A stretch of DNA of 64,000 nucleotides. Source: Pseudomonas sp. Leaf58. Its GTDB lineage: Bacteria; Pseudomonadota; Gammaproteobacteria; Pseudomonadales; Pseudomonadaceae. Location: contig NZ_CP032677.1 in NCBI RefSeq assembly GCF_003627215.1, positions 434,001 through 498,000 on the forward strand, given 5' to 3'. Every line of letters begins with the position of its first letter. Position 1 is the stretch's first letter. The position numbers and the translations under genes were made by a program. Below the pieces are notes generated by a model. It was not told the origin of the DNA. It ran no database searches and saw only the letters and a list, made by a program, of their open reading frames with translations. Shown in pieces: positions 53,166 through 61,216 of this stretch.

Positions 53166-53993
53166 ATGCTGAGCCCTTACATGTCGCCTGTGGAGCGGGT
53201 GTGGTACTACAGCCTGCGCATTCTTTGCGGTCTGATTCTGCTGTTTTTGATCCTGCCGGTGTTGGTCATTGTGCCGCTGTCGTTCAACAGTGGCAGTTTC
53301 CTGGTGTACCCGCTGCAGGGCTTCTCGCTGCAGTGGTATCAGGACTTCTTCGGCTCGGCCGAATGGATGCGGGCCTTGAAAAACAGCATCATCGTTGCCC
53401 CGGCGGCCACGGTGCTAGCCATGGTGTTCGGCACCTTGGCGGCCATCGGCCTGACCCGTGGCGACTTCCCGGGTAAGTCGTTGGTGATGGCACTGGTGAT
53501 CTCGCCGATGGTAGTACCGGTGGTGATTATCGGTGTGGCGAGCTACCTGTTCTTCGCCCCGCTGGGCATGGGCAACAGCTTCACTTCGCTGATCCTGGTG
53601 CACGCGGTGCTGGGTGTGCCGTTCGTCATCATTACCGTGTCGGCGACCTTGCAGGGTTTCAATTACAACCTGGTACGGGCGGCAGCCAGCCTGGGCGCTT
53701 CGCCACTGCTGGCCTTCCGCCGGGTGACCCTGCCACTGATCGCGCCCGGGGTGATTTCGGGGGCGCTGTTCGCCTTTGCCACCTCGTTCGACGAGGTGGT
53801 GGTGACGCTGTTCCTTGCCGGGCCGGAGCAGGCCACTCTGCCACGGCAGATGTTCAGTGGTATTCGCGAGAACCTGAGCCCGACCATTGCCGCGGCGGCG
53901 ACCTTGCTGATTGCCTTCTCCGTGGTGCTGCTGCTGACCCTGGAGTGGTTACGTGGGCGTAGCGAGAAGCTCAGAACCCAGCAGCCTGGCTGA
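53166..53993 (+). CDS. ABC transporter permease (PotC-like)
   Basis: 275 residues with six membrane helices and the EAA loop LVRAAASLGASPLLAFRRVTLP. It is 11 bp after the first permease with GAGG-type ribosome sites. Last gene of the import operon, followed by a perfect REP palindrome. Confidence 0.93.
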   Translation: MLSPYMSPVERVWYYSLRILCGLILLFLILPVLVIVPLSFNSGSFLVYPLQGFSLQWYQDFFGSAEWMRALKNSIIVAPAATVLAMVFGTLAAIGLTRGDFPGKSLVMALVISPMVVPVVIIGVASYLFFAPLGMGNSFTSLILVHAVLGVPFVIITVSATLQGFNYNLVRAAASLGASPLLAFRRVTLPLIAPGVISGALFAFATSFDEVVVTLFLAGPEQATLPRQMFSGIRENLSPTIAAAATLLIAFSVVLLLTLEWLRGRSEKLRTQQPG

Positions 53994-54005
53994 TGATGGC
54001 TTGTC

Positions 54006-54112
54006 TGTACCGGCCTGTTCGCGGCTAAAGCCGCTCCTACAACGACTGCGCAGCATTCATGCCGTGTACAAAGCGTTGTAGGAGCGGCTTTAGCCGCGAA
54101 CAGGCCGGTACA
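54006..54112. repeat. REP pair, family A, perfect 39-bp arms
   Basis: Arms at 54006-54044 and 54074-54112 (core GTTCGCGGCTAAAGCCGCTC) are exactly complementary around a 29-base spacer. Located between the ABC operon and rpe, with no other terminator visible. Confidence 0.96.
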
Positions 54113-54200
54113 GGTCGAAGCAGCTATTGATACCAATCAGCCCTCATCCCTTTCCCTGGGTTACAATGCGCGCCACCGTGATTCTGCCAACAGGTGCGCC

Positions 54201-54875
54201 ATGCAGCCCTACGCTATTGCCCCCTCCATTCTCTCCGCCGATTTCGCTCGCCTGGGCGAGGACGTCGACAAGGTCTTGGCGGCGGGTGCCGACATCGTCC
54301 ACTTCGATGTCATGGACAACCACTACGTCCCCAACCTGACCATCGGCCCGATGGTGTGCACCGCCCTGCGCAAGTACGGCGTCACCGCCCCGATCGACGT
54401 GCACCTGATGGTCAGCCCGGTCGACCGCATCATCGGCGACTTCATCGAAGCCGGCGCCACCTACATCACCTTCCACCCGGAAGCCTCGCAGCACATCGAC
54501 CGCTCGCTGCAACTGATCAGGGACGGCGGCTGCAAGGCCGGCCTGGTGTTCAACCCGGCCACGAGCCTGGATGCCCTGAAGTACGTGATGGACAAGGTCG
54601 ACATGGTGCTGCTGATGAGCGTCAACCCAGGCTTCGGCGGGCAAAAATTCATCCCCGGTACCCTCGACAAGCTGCGCGAGGCGCGTGCGCTGATCGACGC
54701 CAGTGGCCGTGATATCCGCCTGGAAATCGACGGCGGCGTCAACGTCAACAACATCCGCGAGATCGCTGCCGCTGGCGCCGACACCTTCGTCGCCGGCTCG
54801 GCGATCTTCAATGCCCCGGACTACCAGGAAGTGATCGCCAAGATGCGCGCCGAAATGGCTCTGGCCCGCCCATGA
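54201..54875 (+). CDS. rpe: Ribulose-phosphate 3-epimerase
   Basis: Pentose-phosphate enzyme interconverting ribulose-5-P and xylulose-5-P. 224 residues, TIM barrel; motifs [30 protein letters not shown] (catalytic Asp, metal His), VHLMV and [17 protein letters not shown] lies before the ATG. It overlaps gph by 4 bp in the widespread rpe-gph-trp order. Confidence 0.97.
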
Positions 54876-55690
54876 GCGGCTTCGAGCAGCTGTTCCCGGG
54901 GACTCTGCCCAGGCTGGTGATGTTCGATCTGGACGGTACCCTGATCGATTCCGTGCCAGACCTGGCCGCCGCCGTGGACCGCATGCTGCTCGAATTGGGG
55001 CGCCCGCCCGCTGGCCTGGAAGCCGTACGCCACTGGGTTGGCAACGGCGCCCAGGTATTGGTGCGTCGGGCGCTGGCAGGTGGTATCGACCACGCCGGTG
55101 TCGACGATGCGCTGGCTGACCAGGCGCTGGCGCTGTTCATGGACGCCTATGCCGATAGCCATGAACTGACGGTGGTTTACCCCGGGGTACGGGATACCCT
55201 GCGCTGGCTGCGCAAGCAGGGCGTGGAGATGGCGCTGATCACCAACAAGCCAGAGCGCTTCGTCGGCCCGCTATTGGACCAGATGAAGATCGGCAACAAC
55301 TTCCGCTGGATCATCGGCGGCGACACCCTGCCGCAGAAAAAGCCCGACCCGGCGGCGCTGCTGTTTGTCATGCAAATGGCCGGCGTTACCCCGCAGCAGT
55401 CGCTGTTTATCGGCGATTCGCGTAGTGACGTACTGGCGGCCAAGGCGGCTGGGGTGCAGTGCGTGGGCCTGAGCTACGGCTACAATCATGGCCGGCCGAT
55501 TGACGACGAATCCCCCAGCCTGGTGATCGACGACCTGCGCGCATTGCTGCCCGGTTGCGCAGACCCGGCCACTGGGATAACGTTGGCGGACCTTCAAGCC
55601 TCACAAGACAGAGAGTCCACCGTGGCGGTTACTGGCAAATTCTGGATGAAAGTCATCAAGGCCCTGGCCCGTTGGCGTTGGCGCGCCTGA
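54872..55690 (+). CDS. gph: Phosphoglycolate phosphatase whose C-terminus contains the trp leader peptide
   Basis: HAD phosphatase removing 2-phosphoglycolate. 272 residues as read; nucleophile motif [15 protein letters not shown], Thr/Lys motifs [10 protein letters not shown] and KKPDP, and the acidic FIGDSRSD. The fold ends near residue 235; the last 22 residues, VAVTGKFW then [14 protein letters not shown], match the leader peptide found before trpG. So the 3' end doubles as the trpE attenuator leader. Whether the phosphatase really carries this tail or the leader is started independently cannot be told. Confidence 0.94.
55555..55583 (+). promoter_or_regulatory. Candidate trpE promoter inside gph
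   Basis: TTGCGC, 17 bp, TAACGT within the last 140 bases of gph. The -35 hexamer and 17-bp spacing are the same as in the candidate trpGDC promoter. Predicted transcript start is about 30 bases before the leader GTG. Confidence 0.5.
55622..55690 (+). CDS. trpE leader peptide nested in frame in gph
   Basis: A 22-codon reading frame starting at GTG (AGAGAG six bases upstream) and ending ARWRWRA-stop, with two Trp codons separated by one Arg codon, plus a third Trp earlier. The frame is the gph frame. Aligned without gaps to the trpGDC leader at 59359-59427, it shares VIKA and ARWRWRA. P. putida trpE is known to be controlled by attenuation, which requires such a peptide. A GC-rich hairpin GCCGGC-GCGT-GCCGGC follows at 55700-55715, and CGCGCC (55682-55687) can pair with GGCGCG (55703-55708), excluding that hairpin. 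Confidence 0.75.
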
Positions 55691-55760
55691 CTTTAGCTTG
55701 CCGGCGCGTGCCGGCCCGTCCGTTTGCCTGACCTATTGCTGCTTGCCACGAGGCTACCCC

Positions 55761-57245
55761 ATGACCCGCGAAGAATTCCTGCGCCTGGCCGCTGCCGGCT
55801 ACAACCGCATTCCCTTGGCCTGCGAAACCCTGGCCGACTTCGACACGCCGCTGTCGATCTACCTGAAACTGGCTGACCAACCCAACTCGTACCTGCTCGA
55901 ATCGGTGCAAGGCGGCGAGAAGTGGGGCCGTTACTCGATGATCGGCCTGCCGTCGCGCACGGTAATGCGTGTGCATGGCTACCACGTCAGCATCCTGCAG
56001 GATGGCGTGGAGGTGGAACGCCACGATGTCGAAGACCCGCTGGCGTTCGTCGAAACTTTCAAGGACCGGTACAAGGTCGCCGACATCCCCGGCCTGCCAC
56101 GCTTCAACGGCGGCCTGGTCGGCTATTTCGGCTACGACTGCGTGCGTTATGTGGAAAAACGCCTGGGAGCCTGCCCCAACCCTGATCCACTGGGTGTGCC
56201 GGACATCCTGTTGATGGTATCCGACGCGGTGGTAGTGTTCGACAACCTGGCCGGCAAGATGCACGCCATCGTGCTGGTCGACCCGGCTGAAGAGCAGGCC
56301 TTCGAACAGGGCCAGGCACGCCTGCAGGGTTTGCTGGAAACACTGCGCCAGCCGATCACCCCGCGCCGTGGGCTGGACTTGAGTGGCCCGATGGCTGCCG
56401 AGCCAGCGTTCCGCTCAAGCTTTACCCAAGAAGATTACGAGCGCGCAGTCGACACGGTGAAGGAATACATCCTGGCGGGCGACTGCATGCAGGTGGTGCC
56501 GTCGCAGCGCATGTCGATCGACTTCAAAGCCGCGCCTATCGACCTGTACCGCGCGCTGCGTTGCTTCAACCCGACGCCGTACATGTACTTCTTCAACTTT
56601 GGCGACTTCCATGTGGTCGGCAGCTCGCCTGAGGTGCTGGTGCGCGTCGAGGACAACCTAGTCACTGTGCGGCCGATTGCCGGCACCCGCCCGCGTGGCG
56701 CGACCGAAGAGGCCGACCGCGCGTTGGAAGACGACCTGCTGTCGGATGACAAGGAAATTGCCGAGCACCTGATGCTGATCGATCTGGGCCGCAATGACGT
56801 CGGTCGTGTGTCCTCGACCGGTAGCGTGCGCCTGACCGAAAAGATGGTGATCGAGCGTTATTCCAACGTGATGCACATTGTGTCCAACGTCACCGGTCAG
56901 CTGCGCGAAGGGCTGACGGCGATGGATGCACTGCGCGCGATCCTGCCGGCCGGTACGCTTTCGGGGGCACCGAAGATTCGGGCGATGGAGATTATCGACG
57001 AGCTGGAGCCGGTCAAACGTGGGGTTTACGGTGGTGCTGTCGGGTATTTCGCCTGGAACGGCAACATGGATACCGCGATTGCCATCCGTACTGCAGTGAT
57101 TAAAGACGGTGAGCTGCATGTGCAGGCCGGGGGCGGCATCGTGGCCGACTCCGTGCCGGCGCTGGAGTGGGAAGAAACCATCAACAAACGCCGGGCGATG
57201 TTCCGCGCGGTGGCGTTGGCTGAGCAGACTTCCGCCCCAAAATGA
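55761..57245 (+). CDS. trpE: Anthranilate synthase component I
   Basis: Makes anthranilate from chorismate with TrpG. 494 residues. The N-terminal feedback site [15 protein letters not shown] (Trp-binding LLES and S) is present; the catalytic C-domain has [25 protein letters not shown] and [20 protein letters not shown]. The ATG at 55761 is chosen as family start; weak ribosome site. It is separated from trpGDC by the oppositely oriented esterase gene and has its own attenuator. Confidence 0.97.
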
Positions 57246-57252
57246 ATTGATT

Positions 57253-57307
57253 GGGGCTGCCTTGCAGCCCTTCGCGGGCACGCCCGCGAAGGGCCGCAAA
57301 GCGGCCC
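57253..57307. terminator. Hairpin cluster between convergent trpE and the esterase gene
   Basis: CCCTTCGCGGGC / GCCCGCGAAGGG (57268-57293, 12 perfect pairs, loop AC) nested between GGGGCTGC and GCGGCCCC arms. The central part resembles a stripped family A REP. No T-run. Confidence 0.7.
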
Positions 57308-57314
57308 CATCAGT

Positions 57315-59195
57315 TCAGAAGTCCACGCTGACCCCCAGGCTAACCCCCTGCTGCGTCAACTCATCACTCTTGCGCCAGTTGTAGTTGCCGCGCAAATGCA
57401 CCCCCGCCACCACTTCATGGCTCACCCCTAGGCTCGCCCGGGTCAGGTCGCTGTGCGGCGTATACCCGGTCAGGGTGAAATCATTCGCCGGCAAGCTGGT
57501 CAGGTGCATCGTCACATCCTGCTGGTCATCCTCGAATTCATGCTCCTGCGCCACCTCGGCGAACAGCCGGGTACTCGGCAACACCTGCACACTGCCCAGC
57601 AACCCCACACCCAGACGGCGTGACGTGCGTTCCTGGTCGTCGAAGCCCAGTGCCGTCGAACGCCCACTCTTCTCCTCATAGCCGTCGACTTTCACCCGGG
57701 CATAGTCGGCGCTGATGAACGGCGCCAGCTGCCAGCGGCTGCTGTCGGCCGCCAGGTTGTAGCCCAGCCGCCCCGACATTGCCCAGGCTTCGCCATCGGT
57801 GTCGCCCTTTTCGCTGCGGTCGTTCACGCCAAGGGCGAAGGTGCGCTTGAGGTCGCTGTAGTCCAGGTGCCCGGCGGTCAGTGCCGCGTCGGCCCACCAG
57901 CGGTCCTGGCGGTACTGGGCGAAGGCGCTGGCCAGGTAGCTGTCCAGCTTGTAATCGGAGTCTTGTTCGCCCGCTTCCAGCTTCTGCCGATACACGCCGC
58001 CGGCCAGGCCCAGGCGCCAGGCGTCGTTCAGCCGGTAGCTACCACCTAGCGTCAGGTTGTAGCCGCGGCCATCGCCGCTGGCCGCGCTGCGTTGGCCGTC
58101 GAAGTCCAGGTCTTGGGCGCCGGTAGCGGCAAAGGCTTGCCACTGGCCAACCGCCTGCCAGGGTGTCTGCCATTGGTTGCGCAGCTCGTCCTGGTGGGCG
58201 CGCAGGCTGGCGTGGGCCATTTCTGGTAGCAGGGTCAGCTCCCAGGGGGCGGCGATGATCGAGTAGGCGTAATCGGCAATCAGTTGCTGGCCGGCGATGG
58301 TCGGGTGCACCGAGTCGTTGAACAGCAGCTTGGTCGGGTCTGGCGTGGTGCCGTTGATGCCATAAACCGGGTTTTCCACGCAGCCTTCGCCGCTGTAGCA
58401 GGTGCCGACCAGGCTCTGGTCGCTGGCCAGGCCGAATTGACTGGGGCTGGCCAGCGCCTCACCCAGTAGCACGGGGATGTTCAGCGGAATGATCTCGGCA
58501 TCGATCTGCCCCAGCTGGCTGAGCAGCGCTTGGTTGAAGGCGCCCGACAGCAACGACAGCGGGTTTTGTTGCGGCGTGCCGCTGAAGTTCGGTGTTTGGC
58601 CGAGGTCGGGCAGCAGCCAGACCATGATATAGCGGGCGCCGCCCTGCTGCAGGGCCTGGGCGCTGGCAGCCAGGCGGCCGCCAGCGGCGACGGCATCGGC
58701 GGGGCTGTTGACCAGGCCTTGCAGGAAGTCGTTGCCACCGCCGGTCAGGTAGTACAGCGCGTTAGGGTCGGCGCGCAAGCCGTTGGCCAGATAGCCCGGC
58801 TTTTCCCGCAGTACCTGGCCTGCGCCGGGGCGCCCTGGGGGGAGGACCGTCTCGGAAGTGCTGGTGATCGAATCCAGGATCTGCTGCGTGGTGTAGCCGC
58901 CAACTGCCCAGTTGTTGCCGTCCGGCAACCCAAGCGCCTGGTTGAGTGGGGAGGTGGAGGGGCCAAGCTCGGTTGGGCTCACGCCCAACCGCCCACCCAG
59001 GATCATCGGTGACACCGGGGCATAATTGCCACTGGCATCGCGGTTGGTGAAGCGTGCGCCGCCAAACTGCCCGGCGTCGCTGAGGCTGTCGCCAAACACG
59101 ATCATGCTGGAGTAGGGCGAGGGTGCCGCAAACGCCTGGCCGCATGCCAGTGCCAGTGAGGCGAGGGTAAAGCGCAATAACGGTGCTTTTCGCAT
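57315..59195 (-). CDS. estP: GDSL-family autotransporter esterase
   Basis: Outer-membrane esterase displayed on the surface. 626 residues: signal peptide (to AFA/APS near 24), passenger GDSL domain with block [11 protein letters not shown] (Ser), GGGND (block III) and DSVHP (block V Asp/His), then a C-terminal autotransporter barrel (about 350-626) ending in Phe. P. aeruginosa EstA and P. putida EstP are the close relatives; EstA affects rhamnolipid and motility. It is placed between trpE and trpGDC on the opposite strand. Confidence 0.94.
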
Positions 59196-59301
59196 CAGGG
59201 AACATCCTTTTCTTTGTTTTTATCAGGACTACCCGATCGACCTTAGCAAATCGCAGTGCATACCTCCCAAGTCCATTCGTTTCCCCGTGTTTACGGGCAT
59301 A

Positions 59302-59330
59302 TTGCGCCCGCCGCCCCGGTAGGCTACTGT
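59302..59330 (+). promoter_or_regulatory. Candidate trpGDC promoter
   Basis: TTGCGC, 17 bp, TACTGT. Predicted transcript start near 59337, giving a 22-base leader before the GTG of the leader peptide. Divergent from estP. Confidence 0.5.
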
Positions 59331-59358
59331 GCCGGGACGTATGAGCGAGACCTATCCT

Positions 59359-59427
59359 GTGTTGATCGTCAGCAAACTCTTGATGCGTGTAATCAAGGCC
59401 CACGCCCGTTGGCGTTGGCGCGCCTGA
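59359..59427 (+). CDS. trpGDC leader peptide
   Basis: A 22-codon frame from GTG (GCGAGA nearby) ending MRVIKAHARWRWRA-stop. The Trp-Arg-Trp block near the end is the stall site expected for Trp-sensing attenuation. An in-frame ATG at 59341 would give 28 codons but lies almost at the predicted transcript start. Downstream GC-rich inverted segments (GCCGG-CCCGC-CCGGC, then CCTTCCT pairing with AGGAAGG before trpG) could form the attenuator. It is paralogous to the trpE leader. Confidence 0.78.
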   Translation: MLIVSKLLMRVIKAHARWRWRA

Positions 59428-59563
59428 CTTTATCCCCTGCCGGCCCGCCCGGCCCGCCCCCGTTTGCCTTCCTGTCTAACGCCCCTTGTGGCAAAGCCGC
59501 GCCTATCGGCTGGTGTAGGAAGGTTCGAATTCTGAAGTCAGTAGATTCAAGAGGTTTAACCCG

Positions 59564-60157
59564 ATGTTACTGATGATCGACAATTACGACTCATTCACTT
59601 ACAACGTCGTTCAGTACCTTGGCGAGCTGGGTGCCGAGGTCAAGGTCATTCGCAATGACGAAATGACCATCGCCCAGATCGAAGCCCTCAACCCTGAGCG
59701 CATCGTCGTTTCCCCTGGCCCGTGCACGCCGAGCGAGGCGGGTGTGTCCATCGAGGCCATCCTGCATTTTGCCGGCAAGCTGCCGATCCTGGGCGTGTGC
59801 CTGGGCCACCAGTCCATCGGCCAGGCCTTTGGCGGTGACGTAGTGCGTGCACGCCAAGTGATGCACGGCAAGACCAGCCCGGTCCACCACCGTGACCTGG
59901 GCGTGTTCGCCGGCCTCAACAACCCCCTGACCGTGACCCGCTACCATTCCCTGGTGGTCAAGCGCGATACCCTGCCAGACTGCCTGGAAGTCACTGCCTG
60001 GACTGCCCATGCAGATGGTTCGGTCGACGAGATCATGGGCTTGCGCCACAAAACGCTGAATATCGAAGGGGTGCAGTTCCACCCTGAATCGATCCTTACC
60101 GAGCAGGGTCACGAGCTGTTCGCCAACTTCCTCAAGCAGACCGGCGGCCGCCGCTAA
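59564..60157 (+). CDS. trpG: Anthranilate synthase glutamine amidotransferase
   Basis: Supplies ammonia from glutamine to TrpE. 197 residues, class I amidotransferase: nucleophile in [10 protein letters not shown], His-Glu dyad in [10 protein letters not shown]. First gene of trpG-trpD-trpC. It is 136 bp behind the leader peptide. Confidence 0.97.
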
Positions 60158-60166
60158 GGATTGAAC

Positions 60167-61216
60167 ATGGATATCAAGAGCGCGTTGAGCCGTATCGTCG
60201 GCCAGCTGGACCTTTCTACCGAAGAAATGCGCGATGTGATGCGCCAGATCATGACCGGCCAGTGCAGCGAGGCGCAGATCGGTGCCTTTCTGATGGGCAT
60301 GCGCATGAAAAGCGAAAGCATCGATGAAATCGTCGGTGCGGTGTCGGTGATGCGCGAGCTGGCAGACAAGGTTGAACTGCAAACCCTCGACGGCGTAGTC
60401 GATATCGTCGGCACCGGCGGTGATGGCGCGAACATCTTCAACGTGTCCACTGCCTCGTCGTTCGTCCTGGCCGCAGCGGGTTGCACCGTGGCCAAGCACG
60501 GCAACCGCGCAGTGTCGGGCAAGAGCGGTAGTGCTGACCTGCTGGAAGCCGCTGGCATCTACCTGAACCTAACCCCTGTTCAGGTGGCGCGCTGCATCGA
60601 TAGCTTGGGCATCGGCTTCATGTTCGCGCAAAGCCACCACTCGGCCATGAAACATGCAGCCGGCCCGCGTCGCGACCTGGGCTTGCGTACCCTGTTCAAC
60701 ATGCTCGGCCCGCTTACGAATCCGGCTGGGGTGAAGCACCAGGTGGTCGGTGTGTTCGCGCAAGCCCTGTGCCGCCCGCTGGCCGAGGTGCTGCAGCGCC
60801 TGGGGAGCAAGCATGTGCTGGTTGTGCACTCCAAGGACGGCCTGGACGAGTTCAGCTTGGCGGCACCGACCTTTGTTGCCGAACTGAAAAACGACCAGAT
60901 CAGCGAATACTGGGTAGAGCCCGAAGACCTTGGCATGAAAAGCCAGAGCCTGCACGGCCTGGCGGTCGAGAACCCGCAGGCGTCGTTGGAGCTCATCCGT
61001 GATGCACTGGGGCGGCGCAAGACCGAGAATGGGCAGAAGGCTGCCGAGATGATTGTGCTGAATGCCGGTGCCGCGCTGTATGCGGCGGACCATGCCATGA
61101 GCCTGAAGTCGGGCGTAGAACTGGCCCATGATGTTCTGCACACGGGCCTGGCCTGGGAGAAGCTGCAGGAATTGGGTGCCTTTACTGCAGTATTCAAGGT
61201 GGAGAACGAAGCATGA
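60167..61216 (+). CDS. trpD: Anthranilate phosphoribosyltransferase
   Basis: Transfers phosphoribose from PRPP to anthranilate. 349 residues; PRPP-binding [17 protein letters not shown] and [23 protein letters not shown] lies six bases before the ATG at 60167. It overlaps trpC by 4 bp. Confidence 0.97.

Follow-up and report, generated by a model that had tools for sequence, protein, structure and literature searches.

The textbook Trp-sensing leader, trpL, is a free-standing ORF. Other relevant arrangements in Escherichia coli include the pheM-pheST attenuator, which is located behind rplT within an operon that is also entered by upstream read-through, with pheM being a separate ORF, and the ampC promoter, which sits inside frdD. 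Genes nested in the same frame within longer genes, with an internal start, also form a known class.

In Chlamydia, according to PMC7755916, a WWW motif inside a protein gene, that of YtgCR, is a Trp sensor that controls trp genes. For E. coli, PMC7815308 deals with termination linked to uORFs. For Pseudomonas putida, attenuation of trpE and trpGDC appears in the title of Olekhnovich and Gussin (2001), as cited in PMC8297930; in the part of the latter article that was considered, trpE occurs in a reference title only, and premature 3′ ends are described in the trpGDC leader of P. aeruginosa beside a possible GTG-started uORF.

Here we analyze a 64,000-nucleotide stretch of the Pseudomonas sp. 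Leaf58 genome (hereinafter, the window) in which the same 22 codons close the gph frame at its C-terminal end and encode a predicted Trp-sensing leader peptide. As in ribosome-mediated trp attenuation, a short ORF with clustered Trp codons, directly followed by a hairpin, precedes trpE or trpG; unlike the textbook trpL, however, this leader forms the in-frame end of an enzyme gene upstream, which also contains the likely promoter. The locus resembles pheM-pheST in having a putative attenuator in an operon that would also be entered by read-through, but pheM is not fused to the upstream gene, and it resembles ampC/frdD in having a promoter embedded in the coding end of the upstream neighbor, where, however, no leader peptide is shared. 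As in same-frame nested genes, the internal GTG at 55622 lies in the frame of the longer gene and would give a shorter product, with a promoter-like pattern and a Shine-Dalgarno (SD) sequence as the signals found for its possible separate expression; the difference is that translating the segment is predicted to be what counts, rather than the peptide made. With YtgCR, as described in PMC7755916, the locus shares Trp codons within a full-length protein gene for Trp-dependent trp control, but stalling in YtgCR reduces the repressor portion of the polypeptide being made, whereas here the shared frame ends at 55690 and the controlled gene, trpE, begins as a separate cistron at 55761, behind the hairpin. 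Among the literature matches listed, with thin coverage of subscription journals, no title or abstract opening describes shared coding of a gph tail and a trpE leader; the 2001 P. putida paper may already do so.

Organization of the locus and the Gph protein

The features of the locus in the window are as follows.

54201..54875, + strand: rpe, ribulose-phosphate 3-epimerase (TIGR01163, E 1.5e-98); its stop overlaps the gph ATG
54872..55690, + strand: gph, phosphoglycolate phosphatase, 272 aa including the leader-coded tail (NF009698, residues 1-272, E 1.1e-168)
55555..55560, + strand: predicted trpE -35, TTGCGC, within gph (cross-locus pattern)
55556..55621, + strand: gph linker, codons 229-250, open, with a weak codon-position signal; in fused lineages its length varies mostly by multiples of three
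55578..55583, + strand: predicted trpE -10, TAACGT, within gph, read by gph as (A)TA ACG T
near 55590, + strand: predicted trpE transcription start
55610..55615, + strand: SD-like purine-rich AGAGAG ahead of the leader GTG (anti-SD energy compared with shuffles)
55622..55690, + strand: predicted trpE leader ORF in the gph frame, GTG start (55622-55624), 22 codons, stop TGA at 55688-55690
55634..55640, + strand: GGCAAAT within the leader, complementary to GTTTGCC at 55722-55728 (sequence)
55643..55645, + strand: Trp codon 258 (read from the sequence)
55671..55691, + strand: candidate antiterminator, the leader 3′ end, pairing with about 55701-55719 (duplex -25.5 kcal/mol; fold from the ATG onward)
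55673..55681, + strand: Trp codons 268 and 270 (W-R-W; codons at 55673 and 55679, read from the sequence)
55700..55715, + strand: terminator-like hairpin GCCGGC-GCGT-GCCGGC with a weak U tract (stem counts across loci)
55722..55728, + strand: GTTTGCC past the hairpin, complementary to 55634-55640 (sequence)
55761..57245, + strand: trpE, anthranilate synthase component I (TIGR00564, E 6.9e-172); start 70 nt past the gph/leader stop
59302..59330, + strand: predicted trpG promoter, TTGCGC-17-TACTGT, in the same arrangement as at the trpE leader
59359..59427, + strand: trpG leader ORF (GTG), a free-standing relative of the trpE leader, 22 codons, VLIVSKLLMRVIKAHARWRWRA-stop
59564..60157, + strand: trpG, named from its translation and position

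A preliminary description of this DNA singled out the end of gph, and its reading of the sequence holds: the final 22 codons form a leader-like ORF with GTG 55622 in the gph frame, three Trp codons and an ARWRWRA-TGA end, the purine-rich site before the GTG is AGAGAG at 55610-55615, and a relative with its own short frame of 22 codons precedes trpG (GTG 59359). The accompanying statement that the phosphatase fold does not need the tail agrees with the Pfam domains HAD_2 (residues 16-199) and Hydrolase_like (157-224), both of which end before it. In the AlphaFold model, pLDDT is below 50 for residues 231-272, and the sole helix drawn in the tail (259-271) has low confidence; the Gph tail is predicted to be disordered. 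Among named proteins, the best matches to the window Gph, at 95-96% over 228 residues, place it nearest to the P. putida group. The NCBIfam model NF009698 spans all 272 residues, that is, the leader-coded tail has been built into the protein family model.

Of 60 genomes, 26 have an identifiable trpG leader in the 420 nt ahead of trpG. Among the 34 genomes in which none was found, 32 have trpG about 1.6-1.8 kb behind gph, directly after trpE, and trpG is farther from gph in genomes with the trpG leader; the exceptions to this pattern are G336 and G240. In the genome of the window, codons for A-R-W-R-W-R occur at 17 places; at L347, the one place read besides trpE and trpG, there is no leader-like frame before a trp gene. 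Behind trpE, an inverted-repeat-like stretch (57247-57312) faces a minus-strand gene and has sub-threshold Rfam matches on both strands.

Promoter, ribosome-binding site and start inside gph

A pattern TTGNNN, 16-18 nt, TANNNT is found ahead of the leader in all 216 loci in which the leader is fused to gph and in 92 of the 94 loci in which it is a separate ORF. The exact 17-nt spacer occurs in 284 of 292 loci (those with gph identity of 60% or more), whereas 50 mononucleotide shuffles, which keep base composition only, average 2.9 and reach 6 at most; in slices of the gph core, the exact pattern occurs once in 876. The gph codon that overlies the -10 is ATA in 189 and CTA in 27 of the 216 fused loci, with ATA accounting for only 17 of 1828 Ile codons of gph cores. 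The TTGC of the -35 and the TAACGT of the -10 hardly change, compared with an average of 24.7 changes at third positions of the core, and the last two bases of the -35 vary. Since the promoter-like element is located upstream of the leader in both classes, the trpE promoter likely lies inside gph in the fused genomes, together with the SD and the GTG. A consensus promoter scan of 53900-59700 reported nothing, which is explained by the window element matching each textbook hexamer at 3 of 6 positions and thus falling below the limit of such a scan; it was the cross-genome comparison that revealed the element.

The mean anti-SD energy ahead of the leader is -3.2 in fused and -3.3 in unfused loci (-1.4 and -1.8, respectively, after shuffling), and the start chosen is GTG in all but one of the 216 fused loci (215) and all but one of 68 unfused loci (67). 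Given that the leader has a ribosome-binding site of equal strength in both states, independent translation of the leader probably continues in the fused genomes, and, with the promoter-like element retained as well, much of it may be initiated at the GTG of a transcript separate from that of gph.

In 15 of 77 unfused loci, the gph stop coincides with the first three bases of the trpE -10 (TAG or TAA), so that one trinucleotide would serve both signals; examples are the group of L139 and L142 (GLR-stop) and L041.

Putative attenuator elements downstream of the leader

A stem of five or more pairs is found past the leader stop in 281 of the 292 loci, compared with 146 of 292 in one shuffle each. 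The arms vary in a matching manner, with 29 stem types (e.g., GCCGG/CCGGC, GCCGC/GCGGC and GGCTTT/AAAGCC), and the hairpin is visible in an alignment of 81 loci. The stretch past the hairpin is mostly GTTTGC-like, i.e., a poor, short U tract. The putative antiterminator duplex is only slightly better than that of shuffled sequences (mean over loci -21.4 versus -19.5; -25.5 kcal/mol in the window), and the fold of the window leader is not more stable than those of shuffled sequences (z 0.35 and 0.05). An Rfam search of 54500-60500 with E up to 5 gave four sub-threshold matches, none of them to a trp leader family.

A GCAAA(C/T) in the leader is complementary to (G/A)TTTGC behind the hairpin, and both are present in 206 of 292 loci. 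The end pairs are GGC..GCC and TGC..GCA in different groups, and the largest group (CGC..GCA) has no extended pairing.

Proposed mechanism

We propose, as a reading to which we give an even chance, that the fused segment is both the gph end and a Trp leader and that ribosomes translating gph likely sense Trp on transcripts that run from gph to trpE. A transcript starting near 55590 would undergo ordinary leader-peptide attenuation. A second transcript would run through rpe-gph into trpE and be translated by gph ribosomes, which would follow RNA polymerase and arrive at the Trp codons in frame. When Trp is available, these ribosomes would finish at 55690 and the hairpin would form; with Trp scarce, they would stall at the Trp codons, the leader 3′ end would pair with the hairpin, and trpE would be transcribed. 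Under this mechanism, selection would keep the open frame more than the sequence of the tail.

The sensing of Trp by gph ribosomes is what we infer from this arrangement. Of the suggestion in the preliminary description that one segment is both protein tail and Trp sensor, the shared coding stands, being in line with the in-frame fusion and with the depletion of frame breaks documented below; the dependence of the leader on gph does not, because the leader has its own promoter-like element (55555-55583), SD and GTG, kept in fused and unfused genomes alike. Thus, gph ribosomes would not be needed for sensing. A more far-reaching version, namely, that the trpE leader was joined to gph by selection, with each ribosome that completes Gph reading the Trp codons close behind RNA polymerase and thereby setting attenuation of read-through trpE transcription, linking the carbon metabolism of rpe-gph to Trp synthesis without a regulator protein, is a tentative one and somewhat doubtful in our view.

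Distribution and history of the fusion

Altogether, 333 gph loci were parsed, 317 of them distinct, a set that includes many close relatives and is not a random sample. In 216 of the distinct loci, the leader is fused to gph, in 94 it is a separate ORF, and in 7 no leader was found, where leaders were recognised by W-x-W near the stop and other kinds of leader are counted among the 7. Gph is 271-290 residues long in the fused loci, with the leader stop 66-213 nt ahead of trpE, and 225-258 residues in the 94 unfused loci with a leader, where the three frames of the leader relative to gph are about equally frequent (35/30/29). The tail has its Trp codons clustered, with W-R-W close to the stop, and in each of the 216 fused loci trpE is directly downstream; accordingly, for the expectation that the tail is kept only where trpE follows, no counterexample was found among the parsed loci. 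In L155 (G399), where the leader was not found, gph (261 aa) overlaps the trpE start by 4 nt, and in L144 a long inverted repeat separates gph from the trpE leader.

The gph end was surveyed in 379 of 398 genomes of the same genus. In 320 of these, the match extends to residue 271 or 272 without an internal stop, and this number of intact tails indicates that the fusion in the window is not due to chance. In 3 genomes, the tail is present with the core split between frames; 5 have early gph ends within the fused group (G009, G034, G130, G319 and G332); 48 are unfused, including G148 and G393, which fall inside the fused clade of the tree; and the remainder comprises 1 partial match and 2 genomes without a match at E 1e-40. 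In G198, G232 and G359 (L246, L247), the gph core is in two frames and the leader tail is intact, which could be an assembly error or a true break. The fusion extends over a large branch of Pseudomonas and close relatives.

In the tree of gph and trpE combined (308 loci), the fusion was gained once (local support 0.98) and lost three times, and the three lineages that lost it kept the leader. The tree of trpE alone (305 loci) implies two gains, with a support of 0.04 for the larger one, and three losses, which are not the same, L242 not being among them. One of the losses (L041, L243-L245) has a shifted frame that terminates in the TAA of the -10, yielding a Gph of 235 residues, near the unfused lengths. 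In L045, L046, L129, L130 and L242, representing two lineages with lost fusion, gph continues in the shifted frame as far as the leader, where it terminates either in GTGGTAG over the leader start or in the ATGA of an internal ATG, and could still hand over ribosomes.

Preservation of the shared frame

Length changes were traced on the trees in two intervals, from gph residue 226 to the -10 and from the -10 to the leader stop. By reconstructed states on the gph+trpE tree, the ratio of changes that are multiples of three to those that are not is 20:3 in the fused state and 15:54 in the unfused background (Fisher p 3.5e-8; p 1.7e-5 for the second interval alone), and on the trpE-only tree it is 21:4 versus 13:58. 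Per unit branch length, three-fold changes are about equally frequent in the two states (1.09 fused, 1.49 unfused), whereas frame-breaking changes are approximately 30 times rarer in the fused state (0.16 versus 5.35). A split by clade instead of by state was discarded: it gave 20-21:4 inside the fused clade and 14:54 outside on the gph+trpE tree and no significance on the trpE-only tree (32:50 versus 3:13, p 0.16), where the fused loci do not form one clade, so that the split mixes both states; the comparison was therefore redone by reconstructed state.

Nonsense changes point in the same direction. The count covers 171 fused loci of uniform length and, in these, the 18 linker codons that do not overlap the promoter boxes; the clade also has nine unfused loci, which are not part of the count and which all have frame-breaking length changes. 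None of the 483 changes is a nonsense change, compared with 10.8 expected from the observed spectrum. Both the anatomy of the locus and the strong depletion of breaks in the shared reading frame are well supported.

These data bear on the possibility that the attenuator is an ordinary one with its own promoter and that the extension of gph is a by-product, kept because a gph end out of frame would disturb initiation at the leader or yield a harmful extension. Such a by-product would be compatible with the retention of the promoter-like element, SD and start, with the three losses of the fusion in which the leader was kept and with the separate leader of unfused genomes. Nonsense in the linker, however, would simply restore a short Gph and is nevertheless absent, and the loss that ends at the -10 TAA with a Gph of 235 residues shows that at least some breaks are tolerated. 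We consider this explanation unlikely.

Constraint on the linker and the leader

Changes at codon positions 1/2/3 number 391/140/1876 in core residues 151-226, 169/125/189 in the free linker codons, a weak signal with a lower second position, and 18/9/91 in the leader. The amino acids of the linker are apparently far less constrained than those of the core, though not wholly free. With frame breaks and nonsense depleted and the codon signal weak, it is apparently the open frame, more than the amino acids of the linker, that selection maintains, and the linker could best be described as an open, length-tolerant bridge from the folded enzyme to the conserved leader. The two Trp codons of the W-R-W are constant in all loci with a leader, but this is by construction, because leaders were identified by their W-x-W.

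Two tests of constraint on the leader peptide disagree, and the sets that they use differ. With the gph core as the reference, leader changes are about half as frequent in the fused state (37:991 versus 34:480, p 0.01), with p 0.01 for the first 8 residues and p 0.38 for the last 14. With the trpG leader of the same genomes as the reference (the 26 of 60 genomes that have one, all leaders being read from a fixed offset, with longer ones included), the trpE leader is not more conserved when fused (35:43 in 15 fused genomes versus 9:26 in 11 unfused ones).

An alternative is that the leader-coded tail works in Gph itself, a loose linker tethering a conserved cationic, Trp-rich helix that might serve, e.g., in localisation, RNA contact or turnover. 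A kept frame, a loose linker and a conserved end would fit this function equally well, the halving of leader changes relative to the core is in keeping with it, and the only tail helix drawn by AlphaFold, albeit with low confidence, is 259-271. However, the end of the peptide is about as conserved in the unfused lineages (seen for the last 14 residues and for the last 15 codons), the comparison with the trpG leader reveals no added conservation upon fusion, and no parsed fused locus lacks trpE behind it. We consider such a role in Gph unlikely. Finally, a neutral accident, i.e., a single loss of the gph stop in lineages that have merely remained unchanged since, would accord with the single gain on the gph+trpE tree and with the weakly constrained linker residues but is very hard to reconcile with a drop in frame-breaking changes at similar rates of frame-keeping ones and with zero nonsense changes seen.

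Implications

Returning to the proposed sensing of Trp by gph ribosomes, the presence of both states and three reversals in related genomes makes the operation of an attenuator by ribosomes of the upstream gene directly testable with single stop codons. A caution applies to annotation, in that a regulatory leader has been taken for enzyme sequence in NF009698, a public family model. If the proposal is correct, a leader peptide doubles as the conserved end of a housekeeping enzyme, and the promoter, ribosome-binding site, start and sensor of an attenuator would all lie inside the coding sequence of another gene, with the shared frame held by selection.
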